Positions 17,526-61,741 of a stretch of 64,000 nt of DNA are shown here, piece by piece. Each line of letters opens with the position of its first letter. The stretch's first letter is position 1. The stretch comes from Verrucomicrobiota bacterium. Lineage in GTDB: Bacteria > Verrucomicrobiota > Verrucomicrobiae > Limisphaerales > UBA11358. Both the position numbers and the translations under genes were made by a program. The stretch lies in contig JACZKP010000124.1 in assembly GCA_014860005.1 (NCBI GenBank), positions 1-64,000 on the forward strand, read 5' to 3'. Under the pieces are notes generated by a model, which saw only the letters and a program-made list of their open reading frames with translations, was not told the DNA's origin and searched no databases.

Positions 17526-17732
17526 AACGCTCGCCCTCACCCCGGCCCTCTCCCCCAGGAGAGGGAGAAACGCTCGCCGTCTCACTTGCATTTGAACGCG
17601 GCTGTTTATCGGAATTGCCCACTGGCAAAATTCCAAAGCGCGGCGACTGGCACGTTAGCTGACGAATCACCAGTGAGCGCCGATAGCCACTCCCTCTCCC
17701 CGGGGGAGAGGGCCGGGTTGAGGGCGAGCGTT
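17526..17732. repeat. MITE-like element with 42-bp inverted terminal repeats
   Basis: The left end (17526-17567, AACGCTCGCCCTCACCCCGG...) and right end (17690-17732) are inverted copies of about 42 bp with only a few mismatches. Each arm contains a local C-tract/G-tract palindrome (CCCTCTCCC...GGGAGAGGG). The 122 nt between the arms encode nothing recognisable. It fills the spacer between the lipoprotein and the PIN toxin. Size and structure fit a non-autonomous MITE or a large REP-type hairpin. Confidence 0.75.
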
Positions 17733-24232: not shown

Positions 24233-26731
24233 ATGAAAGTTACGCTGAATTGGCTCAGGCAATACGTTGAATTTGACTGGTCGCCGGAACAACTGGCCGA
24301 ACGGCTCACCATGCTCGGGCTCGAAGTCGAGGGGGTGGAGAAGATCTCCGGCGAGTTCGAGGGGATCGTCGTTGCGCAAATCCTCACGCGCGACAAAGTG
24401 CCCGCTTCCGACAAGCTTTCCGTTTGCCGGGTAAACGACGGCCAAGGCGAGCGCACGATCATCTGCGGCGCACAGAATCATCAACCCGGCGACAAAGTTC
24501 CCCTCATCCTGCCTAATTTCGCGCTGCCGATGAAACCTGGTGACAAGGAGCCATTTGTCATCAAGGAGCGAAAAGTGTTTGGGATCACCAGCCAGGGCAT
24601 GATGTGCTCACCGCAGGAACTCGGCTTGCCGGACCAGATTGACGGGTTGCTAATACTTCCTGCTGACGCTCCCGTCGGCAAACCCTTTGCCGAGTATCTC
24701 GGCCGGAGCGGCGGAGACGTGGTTCTCGATCTCGAAGTCACCCCGAACCGCCCAGACCTCAACAGTGTCCTTGGCATCGCCCGCGAAATTGCCGCCGTAA
24801 CCGGCAACAAGCTGAAGCGGCCGTCCACTGAGCTTCACGCCTCACGCCTCACGCAACACGCCGCCGACCTGGTCGCCGTCCGCATCGAAGACCCGGAACT
24901 TTGCCCGCGTTACACTGCCCGCATCGTCAAGGGCGTGAAGATTGGCCCCAGCCCGGACTGGTTGCGTTTGATGCTCGAGCGAGTCGGCATCCGCAGCATC
25001 AACAACGTGGTGGACGTGACCAACTACGTGATGCTCGAATGTGGCCAGCCGCTGCACGCCTTCGATTATCATCTCATCGTCGGTAGCCGCCGAGGTAACG
25101 AGGCGGACGCGTCGGCCAATCCGCCTCCTCACGTCGGCGGCTACGACGGCAAGCCGACGATCGTCGTCCGTCGCGCTGCCGTTGGAGAGAAGTTCAAGAC
25201 GCTCGACAATCAGGAGCGCACGTTGACGAGCAACATGCTGCTCATTGCTGATGAGCAAAAGGGCATTGCGTTGGCCGGTGTTATGGGCGGCGCAAACACT
25301 GAGATTAACGATCAAACCGTGGACGTGCTGATCGAAAGCGCATATTTCTCGCCGACCAATATCCGTCGCACCAGCAAGGCCCTCGGTTTGCGCAGCGAAT
25401 CCAGCTACCGTTTCGAGCGCGGGGCGGACATCGGGATTTGCGACTGGGCCAGCCAACGCGCGGCGCAGTTGATCCTCGAAACCGCCGGTGGTCAACTTGC
25501 CGAAGGAGTCGTGGACGCCTGCCCCCATCCTGCCGAAGCGAAGCAAGTCATGCTGCGTTACGCCAAGACCAATGAACTGCTGGGCATTACCATTGCCCAC
25601 ACCGACCAGGTGAACTATCTCACCATGCTCGGATTGGAAGCCACGGCCCAAACCAATGATACGTGTGCGTTCCGCATTCCGACCTGGCGCGTGGACCTGA
25701 AACGCGAAACGGATTTAATCGAGGAGATTGAGCGGCTTCACGGATTGGAAAAAGTCCCGGCCACCCCGCCGCGCGGCGCGATTGGCACAAATGCCTTTGA
25801 CGCCATTCACGATCAAATCGCTGAAGTGCGGCGCATCCTGTCGGGTCTCGGCTTGAATGAGGCGCAGGGACAAACCCTGATTTCTGATACTGCTGCGAAA
25901 CTGACCGCACCAATGGAAAGCCTCGTCCCCTTGGCGAATCCGCTGAGCAGCGACATGAATGTGCTGCGACCGAGCCTGCTGCCCGGGTTGCTGGAGTCGC
26001 TCCGGCATAACGTCACGCACAAGAATTACGACGTGGCATTGTTTGAAGTCGGGCGGGTGTTCCGCAACGCAAACAATGCTACCCGTGCGGCCAAGGAAGA
26101 ACGCCACATCGCCATCGCGCTCACGGGAAAACGGCAGCCGGGTTTCTGGAGTGGCGAGGAACGCGAGGCAAAATTCGAGCTGACGGACCTCAAGGGTTTC
26201 GTAGAGGAACTCTTGGAACAATTCGGCGTCCGCGGTGTCACTTTCACCGCCCGGACTGAGAATCCAGAGTTGTTTCTCGAATCCGCCGTCATCGCGCTGG
26301 GCGGCAAGCTGCCGCTGGGTGAATTGGGGCTTTTTTCGCCCAGACTGGCGAAGCAGTATGATTTGCGCGACGCCGTGTTGCTCGCCGAATTGAGTTTGAA
26401 TCAACTGATCGCGCGCCGGAATCCCGCCAAGTCGTTCAAGCCGCTGCCGCAGTTCCCCGCCATCCGCCGCGACGTGGCGATGCTTGTGCCGGAAAGTGTG
26501 ACGCACGACGCCGTGCTGCAGGCTGTGCGCAAGGCGAAACCCGCCAACCTGGAAGGCGTGGAGTTGTTTGATGTGTTTCGCGGCCAGCACGTGTCTGCCG
26601 GACAGAAGAGCCTTGCGTATGCTTTCGTTTACCGGCACGCCGCCCGCACACTGACAGACGCCGAAGTCAACACGGCGCACACGCAACTGGTCGAACACCT
26701 CCGGCAGAAACTGGCGGCGGTCATCCGTTGA
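24233..26731 (+). CDS. pheT: Phenylalanine--tRNA ligase beta subunit
   Basis: This 832-residue protein has the full bacterial PheT layout. It contains an N-terminal B1/EMAP tRNA-binding domain (MKVTLNWLRQYVEFDW; VAQILTRDKVPASDKLSVC), B3/B4 editing domain, B5 domain, catalytic-like core, and C-terminal FDX-ACB domain (FPAIRRDVAMLVPES). It forms the alpha2-beta2 synthetase with PheS, which is encoded 20 kb upstream rather than adjacent. Two foreign repeats sit in frame: TCACGCC units at 24835-24854 and a 62-bp palindrome at 25083-25144. Confidence 0.96.
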   Translation: MKVTLNWLRQYVEFDWSPEQLAERLTMLGLEVEGVEKISGEFEGIVVAQILTRDKVPASDKLSVCRVNDGQGERTIICGAQNHQPGDKVPLILPNFALPMKPGDKEPFVIKERKVFGITSQGMMCSPQELGLPDQIDGLLILPADAPVGKPFAEYLGRSGGDVVLDLEVTPNRPDLNSVLGIAREIAAVTGNKLKRPSTELHASRLTQHAADLVAVRIEDPELCPRYTARIVKGVKIGPSPDWLRLMLERVGIRSINNVVDVTNYVMLECGQPLHAFDYHLIVGSRRGNEADASANPPPHVGGYDGKPTIVVRRAAVGEKFKTLDNQERTLTSNMLLIADEQKGIALAGVMGGANTEINDQTVDVLIESAYFSPTNIRRTSKALGLRSESSYRFERGADIGICDWASQRAAQLILETAGGQLAEGVVDACPHPAEAKQVMLRYAKTNELLGITIAHTDQVNYLTMLGLEATAQTNDTCAFRIPTWRVDLKRETDLIEEIERLHGLEKVPATPPRGAIGTNAFDAIHDQIAEVRRILSGLGLNEAQGQTLISDTAAKLTAPMESLVPLANPLSSDMNVLRPSLLPGLLESLRHNVTHKNYDVALFEVGRVFRNANNATRAAKEERHIAIALTGKRQPGFWSGEEREAKFELTDLKGFVEELLEQFGVRGVTFTARTENPELFLESAVIALGGKLPLGELGLFSPRLAKQYDLRDAVLLAELSLNQLIARRNPAKSFKPLPQFPAIRRDVAMLVPESVTHDAVLQAVRKAKPANLEGVELFDVFRGQHVSAGQKSLAYAFVYRHAARTLTDAEVNTAHTQLVEHLRQKLAAVIR
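24835..24854 (+). repeat. In-frame TCACGCC array inside pheT
   Basis: Three TCACGC units at 7-nt period encode part of LHASRLTQHAA in the segment after the B1 domain of PheT. A related TCACGCATCACG array lies inside pheS (3408-3435), where it encodes RITDHASRD. Confidence 0.55.
25083..25144. repeat. 62-bp palindromic element in frame inside pheT
   Basis: Outer arms GTAGCCGCCGA (25083-25093) and TCGGCGGCTAC (25134-25144) pair perfectly over 11 bp. Inner arms GAGGCGGA (25100-25107) and TCCGCCTC (25120-25127) pair over 8 bp. It translates as RRGNEADASANPPPHVGGY within the B3/B4 domain. A second copy with the same reading frame lies in the ccoI gene (61020-61087). Confidence 0.85.
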
Positions 26732-59056: not shown

Positions 59057-61741
59057 TTGCGGGGCGTTTGCTTTGCGTTCAAAACCGCCGGACGAAATGG
59101 TCCGGCTGTGATCAGGTTGGCTCGTTTGACGAACACGAAACAAGTGACCGGCTCGCTTGAAACCACTTTGACCGACGCGCCGCTGGCTCGGGGGCAATCC
59201 AACCCGACCCGCGAGCGCGCGGCGTGTTTTCACTGTGGCGAGCCGTGTCCGGACGGGAGTTTCGCCAAGGCGGAGAAAGTGTTTTGTTGCAACGGTTGCC
59301 TGGTGGTTCACGACTTGTTGACGGAAAGCGGACTTGGCCACTTCTATGATCTGCGTCAGTCGCCCGGCATCCGCGTGCAGGGCGCGGCGCTCCGCGATCA
59401 ATGGGCTTTCCTCGACGAGCCGGCGATCCGGCAACAGTTGCTCGATTTTGCCGACGACCACCAAAGCCGGGTGACGTTTCACGTTCCCGCCATTCATTGC
59501 ATCGCTTGTGTCTGGCTGCTGGAGAATTTGTTCCGGCTGCATCCGGGTGTGGGGCGCTCCGTCGTCAATTACGCCCGGCGTGAAGTGGCCCTCAACTTTT
59601 CCACCGGCGAACTCAAACTCAGCGAACTCGTTGCGCTGCTTGCGTCCATCGGTTACGAACCAGTGCTGACGCTGGGGGAACTGGAGAAGCGGCCTGCCAG
59701 TTCCGCGCGGAGACGCCAGTGGTTGCAGGTGGGTATTGCGGGTTTTGCGTTTGGCAACATCATGTTGTTCAGCCTGCCGCAGTATTTCGGGATGGACGGC
59801 TTCAGCGGACCAGCGTTTACGACCCTGTTCGGCTGGTTGAGTCTGGCGCTGGCGTTGCCGGTCGTCGTGTACAGCGCGTCAGATTATTGGAAATCCGCCT
59901 GGCTCTCACTCCGGCAACGGATGCTCACGCTGGATGTGCCCATCGCCTTGGGGCTGGCGGCCATTTACGGACAAAGCATCTACGAAATCGCCTCGCGCAC
60001 CGGCGAGGGCTACTGCGATTCGCTGACCGGTTTGATCTTCTTCCTGCTCTGCGGGCGCATCTTCCAACAGAAGACCCACGAACGATTGGCGTTTGATCGC
60101 GATTACAAATCGTTCTTTCCGCTTTCGGTGACTCGACGCGGCACGGGGGAACAGCACAGTGAGCGTAACACCGCTCAACCCGCAGAGGAGCGGGTTTCAC
60201 TCTCGCAACTGCGCGTCGGCGACCGCATCGTGCTGCGGAATGGAGAATTGATTCCTGCCGATGCGCGGCTCGTAAGCGGGCCAGCCATGATTGACTACAG
60301 TTTTGTGACCGGCGAATCCGAGCCGGTCGCCAAGCAGGAGGGCGAGTATCTCTACGCCGGCGGGCAGCAAATTGGGGCGGCCATCGAAGTGGAAACGGTC
60401 AAGGCGGTGTCGCAGAGCTATCTGACGTCCCTTTGGAATCACGAAACGTTTCGCAAAGATCGCGACGACTCTGCCAACACGCTGACGAATCGCTACAGCC
60501 GGCGGTTTACGGTCATCGTTATTGGCGTGGCCGTCGGCGCGGCGTTGTTTTGGGTGTTGTCCGGAAATCTTCCGCGAGGGATCAAGGCCTTCACCTCGGT
60601 GTTGATTGTGGCGTGTCCGTGTGCGCTGGCACTCGCCGCGCCGTTCACGCTGGGCACGGCGCAACGCTGGCTGGCGCGTACCAGGGTCTTCCTGAAAAAC
60701 GCCCTGGTCATTGAACGGCTCGCGCGCGTGAACGCCATTGTCTTCGATAAAACCGGCACGCTCACTTCAGCGGGCGTGAACGCGGTTAACTTCCATGGCC
60801 CGTCGTTGAGCCAGACCGAGGCGCGCTGGATCGCCTCTCTCACGCGGCACTCGACGCATCCGCTCTCGGCGCGCATTGCCGAATCGTTCGGCGACCAGTA
60901 TCTGCCTGAACTGGTTCATGGGTTCCGCGAGACTGCCGGGTGCGGTATCGAGGGTCTCGTGGACGGACACGCACTGCTGCTTGGCTCGCGCGGGTGGCTG
61001 GCGTTACGTGGGGTTGATTGTAAACGCCGAGGTGAGGCGGTGGAGCTGCAGCCCGAAGCGAATCCGCCGCTTCACGTCGGCGGCTACCAGGGCAGCGCGG
61101 TTCACGTGGCGATTGATGGCCGGCATCACGGTGAATTTGTGCTCGCCGGCACGCTGCGGCCGGAAACGGATGAATTGCTCCGGCAACTGGCCGGGTGCAA
61201 TGAACTGGCATTGCTGTCCGGGGACAATGAACGCGAGCGCGAGCGCTTCCGCGCGTTGTTCGGCGCGGACGCGCGACTGAACTTTAATCAGAGCCCGCTC
61301 GACAAGTTGGGCTTCATCCAGCGTCTGCAACAGCAGGGTAAAACCGTGATGATGGTGGGCGACGGCTTGAACGATGCCGGCGCGCTCAAGCAAAGCGACG
61401 TGGGCGTGGCGGTTGTGGAGAAGATCGGTGCGTTTTCACCGGCCAGCGACGTGATTCTGGACGCGGTGCGCGTGCCGCAACTCTTTGAGATTCTCACCCT
61501 CGCCCGCCGGGCGGCGCGAATCGTGAAGATCAGCTTCGGCATTTCCGCCGCCTACAACGTTATTGGCGTGAGCATCGCGGCGGCGGGGCTGCTTTCGCCG
61601 GTCGTCTGCGCGGTGTTGATGCCGGTGAGTTCGGTGTCGGTGGTGGTGTTCGCGTGCGGTGTGACGACGTGGGCGGCGCGGCGCACCGGCCTGAAATTTG
61701 ACTTGGAGCAAGGCCCGTCGGACGCGGCCTTGGTTGATTAA
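59057..61741 (+). CDS. ccoI: Copper P-type ATPase for cbb3 oxidase assembly (CcoI/FixI)
   Basis: This 894-residue P1B ATPase has an N-terminal Cys-rich domain (CFHCGEPCP, FCCNGCLVV) and an HMA-like domain with AIHCIACVW (CxxC). Eight or so membrane segments follow, with the metal-site CPC in IVACPCALALA, DKTGTLT and GDGLNDAGAL. CcoI supplies copper to cbb3 cytochrome oxidase, which fits ccoS and ccoNO directly downstream. The start is uncertain: TTG at 59057 or GTG at 59108. Two repeat-like insertions lie in frame: a hairpin at 60177-60196 and a palindrome at 61020-61087. Confidence 0.92.
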   Translation: MRGVCFAFKTAGRNGPAVIRLARLTNTKQVTGSLETTLTDAPLARGQSNPTRERAACFHCGEPCPDGSFAKAEKVFCCNGCLVVHDLLTESGLGHFYDLRQSPGIRVQGAALRDQWAFLDEPAIRQQLLDFADDHQSRVTFHVPAIHCIACVWLLENLFRLHPGVGRSVVNYARREVALNFSTGELKLSELVALLASIGYEPVLTLGELEKRPASSARRRQWLQVGIAGFAFGNIMLFSLPQYFGMDGFSGPAFTTLFGWLSLALALPVVVYSASDYWKSAWLSLRQRMLTLDVPIALGLAAIYGQSIYEIASRTGEGYCDSLTGLIFFLLCGRIFQQKTHERLAFDRDYKSFFPLSVTRRGTGEQHSERNTAQPAEERVSLSQLRVGDRIVLRNGELIPADARLVSGPAMIDYSFVTGESEPVAKQEGEYLYAGGQQIGAAIEVETVKAVSQSYLTSLWNHETFRKDRDDSANTLTNRYSRRFTVIVIGVAVGAALFWVLSGNLPRGIKAFTSVLIVACPCALALAAPFTLGTAQRWLARTRVFLKNALVIERLARVNAIVFDKTGTLTSAGVNAVNFHGPSLSQTEARWIASLTRHSTHPLSARIAESFGDQYLPELVHGFRETAGCGIEGLVDGHALLLGSRGWLALRGVDCKRRGEAVELQPEANPPLHVGGYQGSAVHVAIDGRHHGEFVLAGTLRPETDELLRQLAGCNELALLSGDNERERERFRALFGADARLNFNQSPLDKLGFIQRLQQQGKTVMMVGDGLNDAGALKQSDVGVAVVEKIGAFSPASDVILDAVRVPQLFEILTLARRAARIVKISFGISAAYNVIGVSIAAAGLLSPVVCAVLMPVSSVSVVVFACGVTTWAARRTGLKFDLEQGPSDAALVD
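61020..61087. repeat. 68-bp palindromic element in frame inside ccoI
   Basis: The right arm (61061-61087) matches the right arm of the pheT element (25118-25144) at 25 of 27 positions. The left arm (61020-61045) is its imperfect inverted copy. Both copies translate in the same frame: RRGEA...ANPPLHVGGY here and RRGNEA...ANPPPHVGGY in PheT. Confidence 0.8.

Follow-up and report, generated by a model that had tools for sequence, protein, structure and literature searches.

A 64,000-nucleotide stretch of DNA from a Verrucomicrobiota bacterium of the order Limisphaerales (contig JACZKP010000124.1, positions 1 to 64,000, here called the window) carries a palindrome in frame inside pheT, the gene for the beta subunit of phenylalanine--tRNA ligase, and a similar one inside ccoI, a gene for a heavy-metal P-type ATPase. 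What kind of element is this, and how can it persist within the reading frames of two unrelated genes? The answer that we favor, with a probability of roughly 0.87, is that both inserts are copies of one REPIN, a pair of inverted repetitive extragenic palindromes (REPs), and that this REPIN is a non-autonomous mobile element of the Limisphaerales, surviving in frame in tolerant loops of proteins. An earlier reading based on the letters of the window (the sequence-only reading) had recognized both palindromes and had compared their behavior to that of Rickettsia palindromic elements (RPEs), which it did not know from this phylum.

The host gene of the first element is the open reading frame (ORF) at 24233..26731 on the forward strand, present in the ORF list and identified by family scans, which encodes 832 amino acids (aa) and matches the NCBIfam model pheT_bact with 788.6 bits, against a cut-off of 402.65. 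The element itself (25083..25144, forward strand) is 62 bp long and is translated in the pheT frame as SRRGNEADASANPPPHVGGY. Judged by eye, its outer arms (25083-25093 and 25134-25144, 11 bp) and inner arms (25100-25107 and 25120-25127, 8 bp) are perfect, as the sequence-only reading had stated, and its fold as DNA (-23.6 kcal/mol, z -6.2) was equaled by none of 200 shuffled sequences. It consists of a left REP (25083..25107, forward strand), in which GTAG is followed by a 5-bp stem, CCGCC/GGCGG, around the 10-nt loop GAGGTAACGA, a variable spacer (25108..25119, forward strand), and a right REP that is inverted (25120..25144, reverse strand) and has its GTAG at 25144. Both REPs match the repeat described below without a mismatch, and both have the GTAG tag at the foot of the hairpin. 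Taken alone, the left REP gives a hairpin with a z of -2.0, and 7 of 200 shuffles were as good.

The second host gene (59057..61741, forward strand) was identified by family scans as a CcoI/CopA-like heavy-metal P-type ATPase (PF12156 and E1-E2_ATPase). It contains a worn REPIN at 61020..61087 on the forward strand, in a loop before GSAVHVAIDG, with the in-frame reading KRRGEAVELQPEANPPLHVGGY. The left REP (61020..61044, forward strand) has 4 mismatches to the repeat and its tag reads GTAA, and the right REP (61063..61087, reverse strand) has 2 mismatches; the fold of the whole has a z of -4.7, again with 0 of 200 shuffles as good. The right arms of the two elements are identical at 25 of 27 nt and are read in the same frame, which bears out the proposed sister relationship. 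Exact occurrences of the 14-mer CACGTCGGCGGCTA within the window are confined to these two elements, and an Rfam scan of the window at gathering thresholds gave 0 matches. Both hosts had been called essential-type genes; they are indeed unrelated, but a P-type ATPase of the CcoI/CopA-like kind is not an essential-type gene.

Inspection of copies in public genomes indicates that the unit is not the 62-bp palindrome, as had been supposed, but a single repeat of 25 nt, GTAG-CCGCC-GA(C/G)GTNA(C/G)GA-GGCGG-A, present twice in inverted orientation. In 150 loci plus the window (1.0 Mb), a search allowing up to 4 mismatches found 283 repeats, compared with 0 in one mono-nucleotide shuffle. All 124 pairs of neighboring repeats no more than 60 bp apart are head to head with GTAG on the outside, and their spacers range from 8 to 52 nt. 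Since most of these loci (a few of which overlap) were chosen by one repeat half only, the orientation of the other half is free of selection. When the stem was left free in the search, 57 of 242 repeats deviated from the canonical stem, and among 32 stems changed in both arms 12 were fully paired, G-T pairs allowed (shuffled mean 4.2, maximum 9 in 2000 shuffles). The flanks favor YC before GTAG and ATT after the stem. The pheT and ccoI elements are dimers of GTAG REPs, that is, REPINs, with inverted repeats around a variable spacer. The GTAG tag, the 5-bp stem with compensatory change and the many dispersed copies are those of the GTAG REP superfamily, and two inverted REPs with a short, diverse spacer are what defines a REPIN; the wider counts do not bear on the tag, as the search patterns include it. 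Association with a gene for a REP-associated tyrosine transposase (RAYT), another mark of GTAG REPs, was not found for the pheT family.

The repeat is dispersed in the genomes of the order. Copies were counted in relatives, in 12 genomes that had been selected as carriers, and all 12 contain between 47 and 320 repeats at no more than 2 mismatches, with 0 for a reversed-pattern control. In an even draw across the order, 65 of 196 genomes have at least one repeat at no more than 1 mismatch (the reversed pattern occurred once each in 2 genomes), and in a draw across the phylum 3 of 194 genomes carry it, one of them being the center genome, G009. Among the 120 stretches listed when public genomes were scanned with the right arm, 117 are in assemblies named Verrucomicrobia, judged from their titles, two are in one metagenome-assembled genome (MAG) titled 'Acidobacteria' and one is in a 'bacterium'. 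A 7.9-Mb MAG titled Akkermansia muciniphila (CAMAUZ; G002, the source of L003 and other loci) falls in the order of G009, and its species name is probably wrong.

The 210-nt flanks of 123 dimers were scored by hexamer usage, with a model for which these loci themselves served as the training set. Both flanks are coding on one strand in 28 dimers, of which 26, including both window copies, lie in an open frame, 1 has a stop in the same frame and 1 is out of frame; the remainder have coding flanks on opposite strands (6), one coding flank (28) or none (55), or lie at contig ends (6). A few of these 26 copies lack independence, since L007 and L016 have a site in common and L048 supplies two copies; among the loci, L126 repeats part of L034, and L035 and L037 are near-identical. 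In the 26 in-frame copies the left half is read 20 times in the SRRGNEA/SRRREEA frame, 6 times in the VAAEVTRR frame and never in the TAG frame, a zero given by construction because that frame holds a stop. The bias of 20 to 6 (two-sided p 0.009) is not due to stops, because in the 91 dimers not classed as in-frame, taken on both strands, the other two frames are open to the same extent (158 of 182 each) and the TAG frame is always closed (182 of 182). An absence of frame bias in genes, which the sequence-only reading had named as a finding that would overturn it, was thus not observed. The right half is read as NPPPHVGGY in 13 copies, LLTSAA in 6 and SSRRRL in 7, and each of the six possible pairings, from two open left frames and three right ones, is represented; the frame that the two window copies share is therefore not a rule of the family. 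Besides pheT and ccoI, the hosts recognized by Pfam and NCBIfam include valine--tRNA ligase (valS), GatB, DNA polymerase III gamma/tau (dnaX), an AddA-like protein, HrpB (two copies), BioA, photolyase, UbiD and CstA. So-called repetitive extragenic palindromes in this order also supply protein sequence to housekeeping genes. One hrpB gene (L048:1697-4378) holds two in-frame REPIN copies. The UbiD-family genes of L007, L016 and L044, which are from different genomes, have a CCGCC REPIN at the same place, read as VAA..NPPPHVGGYDHA (by eye for L044).

In relatives, the commonest state of the pheT site is a short turn such as YHLIAKGADGKPT, relative to which the window copy is a net gain of 54 nt, or 18 codons. 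Judged by PheT, G001 is the nearest genome of the draw (86% identical), and its copy of this element (L201) is decayed, with changed residues. A search for PheT across the phylum yielded a single close relative, so PheTs were sampled within the order. The sample of 189 rows comprises the window, P0002-P0120 and 69 genes, with L268 (wrong ORF) left out of the alignment and P0001 (identical to the window) left out of the final tree. The site is empty in 117 rows and filled in 72, the latter falling into eight classes plus 7 'other', classes that rest on peptide motifs and of which F4 and F7 may be one family. On a tree built without the insert columns there are at least 56 class changes (68-72 in five label shuffles) and 36 changes between filled and empty, on a quick FastTree topology with 51 of 186 inner branches weak and by a count that is blind to gain versus loss. 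Several classes are GTAG or GTGG hairpins at the DNA level. The insert class GTAGGACAGGCTTCCAGCCTGTC has an exact match inside the pheT of G255, and there it is part of a GTAG family with 94 copies at no more than 2 mismatches, many of which carry matched changes in both arms. Individual loops in which inserts have been gained, lost or exchanged repeatedly are natural, replicated insertion-tolerance experiments that can be read from genomes. Further length variants of PheT occur near residues 201-208, 471-475 and 610-621.

Two solved PheRS chains in the alignment have a short turn at the position of the insert. A structure model of the window PheT made from 45 diverse sequences has a mean predicted local distance difference test score (pLDDT) of 87.5, a first model from a narrow alignment having been poor (46.7), and its best Foldseek matches are PheRS beta subunits. 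Segments of at least 3 residues under a pLDDT of 50 are 287-293 and 295-304, which make up the insert loop 287-304, and 514-521. Because it is a low-confidence segment in an otherwise good model, the insert is modeled as a disordered loop of the B3/4 region, preceding strand 308-314, consistent with the surface loop that the sequence-only reading had proposed to look for on a PheT structure.

The loop of the ATPase looks like a second such acceptor, used in the same way as the pheT site. In an alignment of 120 ATPases, including the window's own, varied inserts stand before VHVAIDG among the rows listed, such as SRRREEAE..NPPPHVGGY, VGQASRL..RRDACPT, SSRRKEA..EPPYVGCY and others. No class counts are given for ccoI because 51 of the 105 proteins captured by the regular expression stayed unclassified, some with overlong segments; the expression missed the other 15 of the 120, and many ATPase loci that it missed or misread were left uncounted.

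How such copies would arise and persist can be outlined as follows. The REPIN is presumably copied as single-stranded DNA by a Y1/HUH transposase of the RAYT type. A copy within a gene would survive only if its length and frame keep the coding sequence readable and if it sits at a surface turn that tolerates insertion. As the reading frame is kept, a surviving copy would be translated, as a disordered polar linker, and would then decay. The acceptor loops may be nearly neutral; two of them would be the turn of PheT that precedes strand 308-314 and the ATPase loop in front of VHVAIDG, each refilled by different repeat classes. In relatives, an autonomous REP-RAYT-REP unit would use the same kind of sites, so that the transposase becomes an extra stretch of a host ORF, and such embedded guests may be active.

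Several results weigh against the reading of the inserts as copies of a mobile REPIN held in tolerant loops. Genes for Y1 transposases are present in 12 of 12 carrier genomes, and several RAYT-like genes are flanked, by eye, by GTAG or GGAG hairpins of other families. No cognate RAYT beside a CCGCC REP was found in the Y1 loci of the 12 genomes (30 + 20 + 20 loci) or in later loci; none of 52 ORFs matching the RAYT profile has a CCGCC REP within 400 bp, and only 2 of 58 HUH motifs have a CCGCC half-copy within 900 bp, at 585 and 826 bp. As no RAYT bounded by a CCGCC REP was found, we infer the mobilizer of the pheT REPIN. Among the other classes at the pheT site, only the GTAGGACAGGC class proved dispersed in its own genome; two others have 1-3 copies in the genomes tested, where dispersal was not seen, and the insert of L264 does not fold. 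The share of copies in coding sequence is rough because genes were called by our own hexamer scoring and 55 of 123 dimers have no coding-scored flank. The ratio of 26 to 2 exaggerates the filter, because a gene-breaking copy soon ceases to score as coding. Finally, nearly all the sequence used is from metagenome assemblies.

Most of what was found has close counterparts in known repeats. The sections of Di Nocera et al. 2013 (PMC3733652) available to us report GTAG REPs inside ORFs, mostly in Opitutus terrae, a member of the same phylum; intragenic REP dimers and groups that encode 20-30 aa, with tRNA synthetase hosts in other species; and two Xanthomonas recB genes that carry different REPs at about the same site. 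The elements described here share with those GTAG REPs the tag, a stem of 5-13 bp, a loop of 2-20 bp, head-to-head dimers, copies within ORFs and the phylum. They differ in that no cognate RAYT was found here, the families being compared by description and not by consensus sequence. Since intragenic REPs were reported from the phylum in those sections, the in-frame habit is known, and the behavior is not new to the phylum, as had been thought; the pheT element adds one more case to a kind of repeat whose habit is known. As in the REPINs of Bertels and Rainey 2011 (PMC3116915; see also PMC8049555), described in the parts at hand as two inverted REPs with a short, highly diverse spacer that can form one long hairpin, the REPs are inverted, the short spacer is diverse and a long hairpin can form. 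Unlike in PMC3116915, which in those parts introduces REPs as extragenic, 26 of 123 dimers here run in frame through genes. Compared with the recB pair of PMC3733652, as far as its available sections describe it, the pheT site is used on a larger scale, by many classes across an order. As far as our searches of the literature reach, what is new is this use of single loops by many classes, together with the in-frame RAYT cassettes described below.

The likeness to RPEs deserves a closer look. Both are palindromes in frame in functional genes, and the part of the comparison that held is a dispersed palindrome in frame in unrelated genes, some of them essential. A true RPE, shared by descent or transfer and selected for translation, is nonetheless very improbable: the element is a head-to-head GTAG REP dimer and, as far as tested, no relative of RPEs, and the available sections of PMC3733652 place the conorii RPE-4 and RPE-6 under separate CGTC repeats. 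The tag class, the phylum and the composition from dimers of short units set our elements apart by description, and the concentration of the right-arm matches listed in Verrucomicrobia-named assemblies, with only 3 of 194 genomes of the phylum draw carrying the repeat, argues in the same direction. That the insert is an old functional part of PheT and the ATPase, palindromic by chance, would agree with its presence in the near relatives P0002-P0004 and L201, but the empty sites in 117 of 189 related PheTs already refute it; the two solved chains with a short turn and a repeat found 47-320 times per carrier genome leave it with practically no probability. An ancestral segment in PheT is also one of the two findings that the sequence-only reading had offered as its own refutation.

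It is less easy to dismiss, though still unlikely, that some copies within genes are kept for a function of their peptide, such as contact with a protein or an influence on how tRNA is handled close to the editing domain. The frame bias is towards the charged SRRGNEAD reading and the pheT site is filled in 72 of 189 rows, yet classes with unrelated peptides swap at this one site, residues have changed in L201 and the loop is modeled as disordered. Two inverted 25-nt ends around a variable center would also suit a classic miniature inverted-repeat transposable element moved by a DDE transposase. For this we see a very slight chance, because among 123 dimers no target-site duplication was seen (2-nt identity in 7, compared with a shuffled mean of 4.1 and a maximum of 9, and nothing above chance beyond 2 nt except one 5-nt case), and because each end varies independently: of 26 dimers in which a half deviates, 24 have halves that differ from each other, which indicates that each REP half acts as its own hairpin. 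The strong fold (z -6.2, calculated as DNA) might instead point to an action of the hairpin in the RNA, by pausing, bypass or excision, with the insert left untranslated. Bypass or excision would need neither a kept frame nor freedom from stops, whereas 26 of 28 relevant copies have both, in three right-half frames, and we regard this as no more credible than a true RPE. The reading as a mobile REPIN in tolerant loops accounts best for these results.

In relatives, transposases were found in frame inside host genes. In G001, a 1531-aa ORF is DNA polymerase III alpha with a RAYT in mid-protein, and the dnaE gene concerned (L325:1987-6579) contains a whole in-frame REP-RAYT-REP cassette, as does that of L362. 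In G284, the source of L362, the RAYT-bearing dnaE is the only dnaE match at E <= 1e-60. Other RAYTs lie within the SNF2 domain of a helicase (L326; G006), in a DinG/YoaA helicase (L322; G010), in a UDPGP-like protein (L320; G007), in an HsdR ORF that is truncated at a contig end so that only the downstream side is visible (L321; G003), and in PriA (L351) and ClpB (L361), where they were identified from RAYT matches and the HUH motif. RAYT matches occur in 92 of 196 genomes of the order, and among 150 matches listed at least 24, in at least 19 genomes, are in open frames of at least 700 aa, with the host domain checked for part of them.

A protein search with the RAYT part of the G001 DnaE ORF, among candidates of about 840-2680 aa only, gave 1981 proteins at E <= 1e-10, the query's own included; the cassette counts, motifs and distances given here refer to the best 120 of these. 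By motif, the hosts are 42 DinG-like, 34 DnaE, 25 UDPGP-like, 1 SNF2 and 18 other proteins, and family scans identified among the last methionine synthase (P0258), IspG (P0276) and alanine--tRNA ligase (P0254). A further RAYT-bearing long protein is an anti-phage-associated DUF1156 protein (P0280). Source names suggest Planctomycetota and Methylococcaceae for P0254 and P0280. All 120 proteins have the HUH motif and 112 have the Y..NP motif (119 and 99 with stricter patterns). Measured from the HUH motif, the host motif lies at a nearly constant distance in DinG (42 of 42, 153-169 residues) and in the UDPGP-like proteins (25 of 25, 133-175), and the DnaE guests occupy two sites, the main one with 28 guests (98-161, NES..FAP to IRFGL) and another with 6 (649-701). 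Most of the 28 rows of the main DnaE site have, as judged by eye, matching types of REP peptide on the two borders, such as VVARASRPFD..HTGGTPVPL, and a few rows, such as P0263, have no REP peptide on one side. This site was readable in 24 of 30 dnaE loci, the 6 in which it was not found in one frame being dropped: it is empty in 13 (8 aa), holds short inserts of 19-44 aa in 10 and a RAYT in 1 (L362). Among the short inserts, that of L367 is the kind of REPIN found at the borders of the L325 RAYT, and some others are not recognizable repeats.

In a RAYT tree of 151 rows the guests cluster by host gene, with 2 changes for the 42 DinG rows, 3 for the 25 UDPGP-like rows and 7 for the 28 rows of the main DnaE site, compared with shuffled means of 36.9, 23.5 and 26.0; the rows were picked by similarity to a DnaE guest, near-copies inflate the clustering and only 32 of 145 branches are firm. 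The embedded stretches match the NCBIfam family REP_Tyr_transpos, below the cut-off in five ORFs and above it in P0254, P0258, P0276 and P0280. Like the RAYT (TnpA-REP) transposases of PMC2817692 and PMC6006769, as described in the portions available, they match this family, and at the dnaE site they stand between REP peptides; unlike them, they are inner parts of host ORFs. The available sections of PMC3733652 do not describe a RAYT inside a host gene, the accessible text of PMC3116915 and PMC2817692 does not use the term 'in-frame', and no published description of a RAYT in frame inside a host gene was found in the open-access literature searched.

These cassettes resemble inteins. Inteins and homing endonucleases are in-frame guests at constant sites of conserved genes, largely with one lineage per site, and the RAYT cassettes share all of this. 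They differ from inteins in that the guest is an HUH-type nuclease bounded by translated REPs and in that no splicing domain was found among the family matches of the RAYT-bearing ORFs (Pfam at E 0.001 for four long ORFs, NCBIfam at 1e-8 for five); those scans list host and transposase families, one listed helicase family being named intein-prone. It is possible, in our view a little more doubtful than probable, that the REP/RAYT elements of Verrucomicrobiota and some other phyla lead a homing-like, intein-like life without splicing. The transposase would sit in frame between two REPs in conserved genes (dnaE, dinG, the UDPGP-like gene, metH, ispG, alaS, priA and clpB), each main site having its own long-lived RAYT lineages with an intact HUH/Tyr center, and the REPINs of pheT and ccoI would be the non-autonomous arm, using permissive loops as safe harbors. 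If this is true, a transposase inside a replicative polymerase or helicase would be shielded from loss by the host gene and would be produced every time its host protein is, which offers a testable account of how RAYTs persist. There is a warning for annotation here too, as long ORFs of this kind, which recur in many independent contigs, are not necessarily errors.

Another dispersed repeat is present in the window at 17527-17559 and 17692-17717 (CCCTCACCCC..CCCTCTCCCC / GGGGAGAGGG). Its 15-mers recur up to 16 and 9 times in other loci, and peptides resembling its translation occur in the ATPase loop of some relatives (PSPPLEER.., LLSPALSS) and at one dnaE site (L374).

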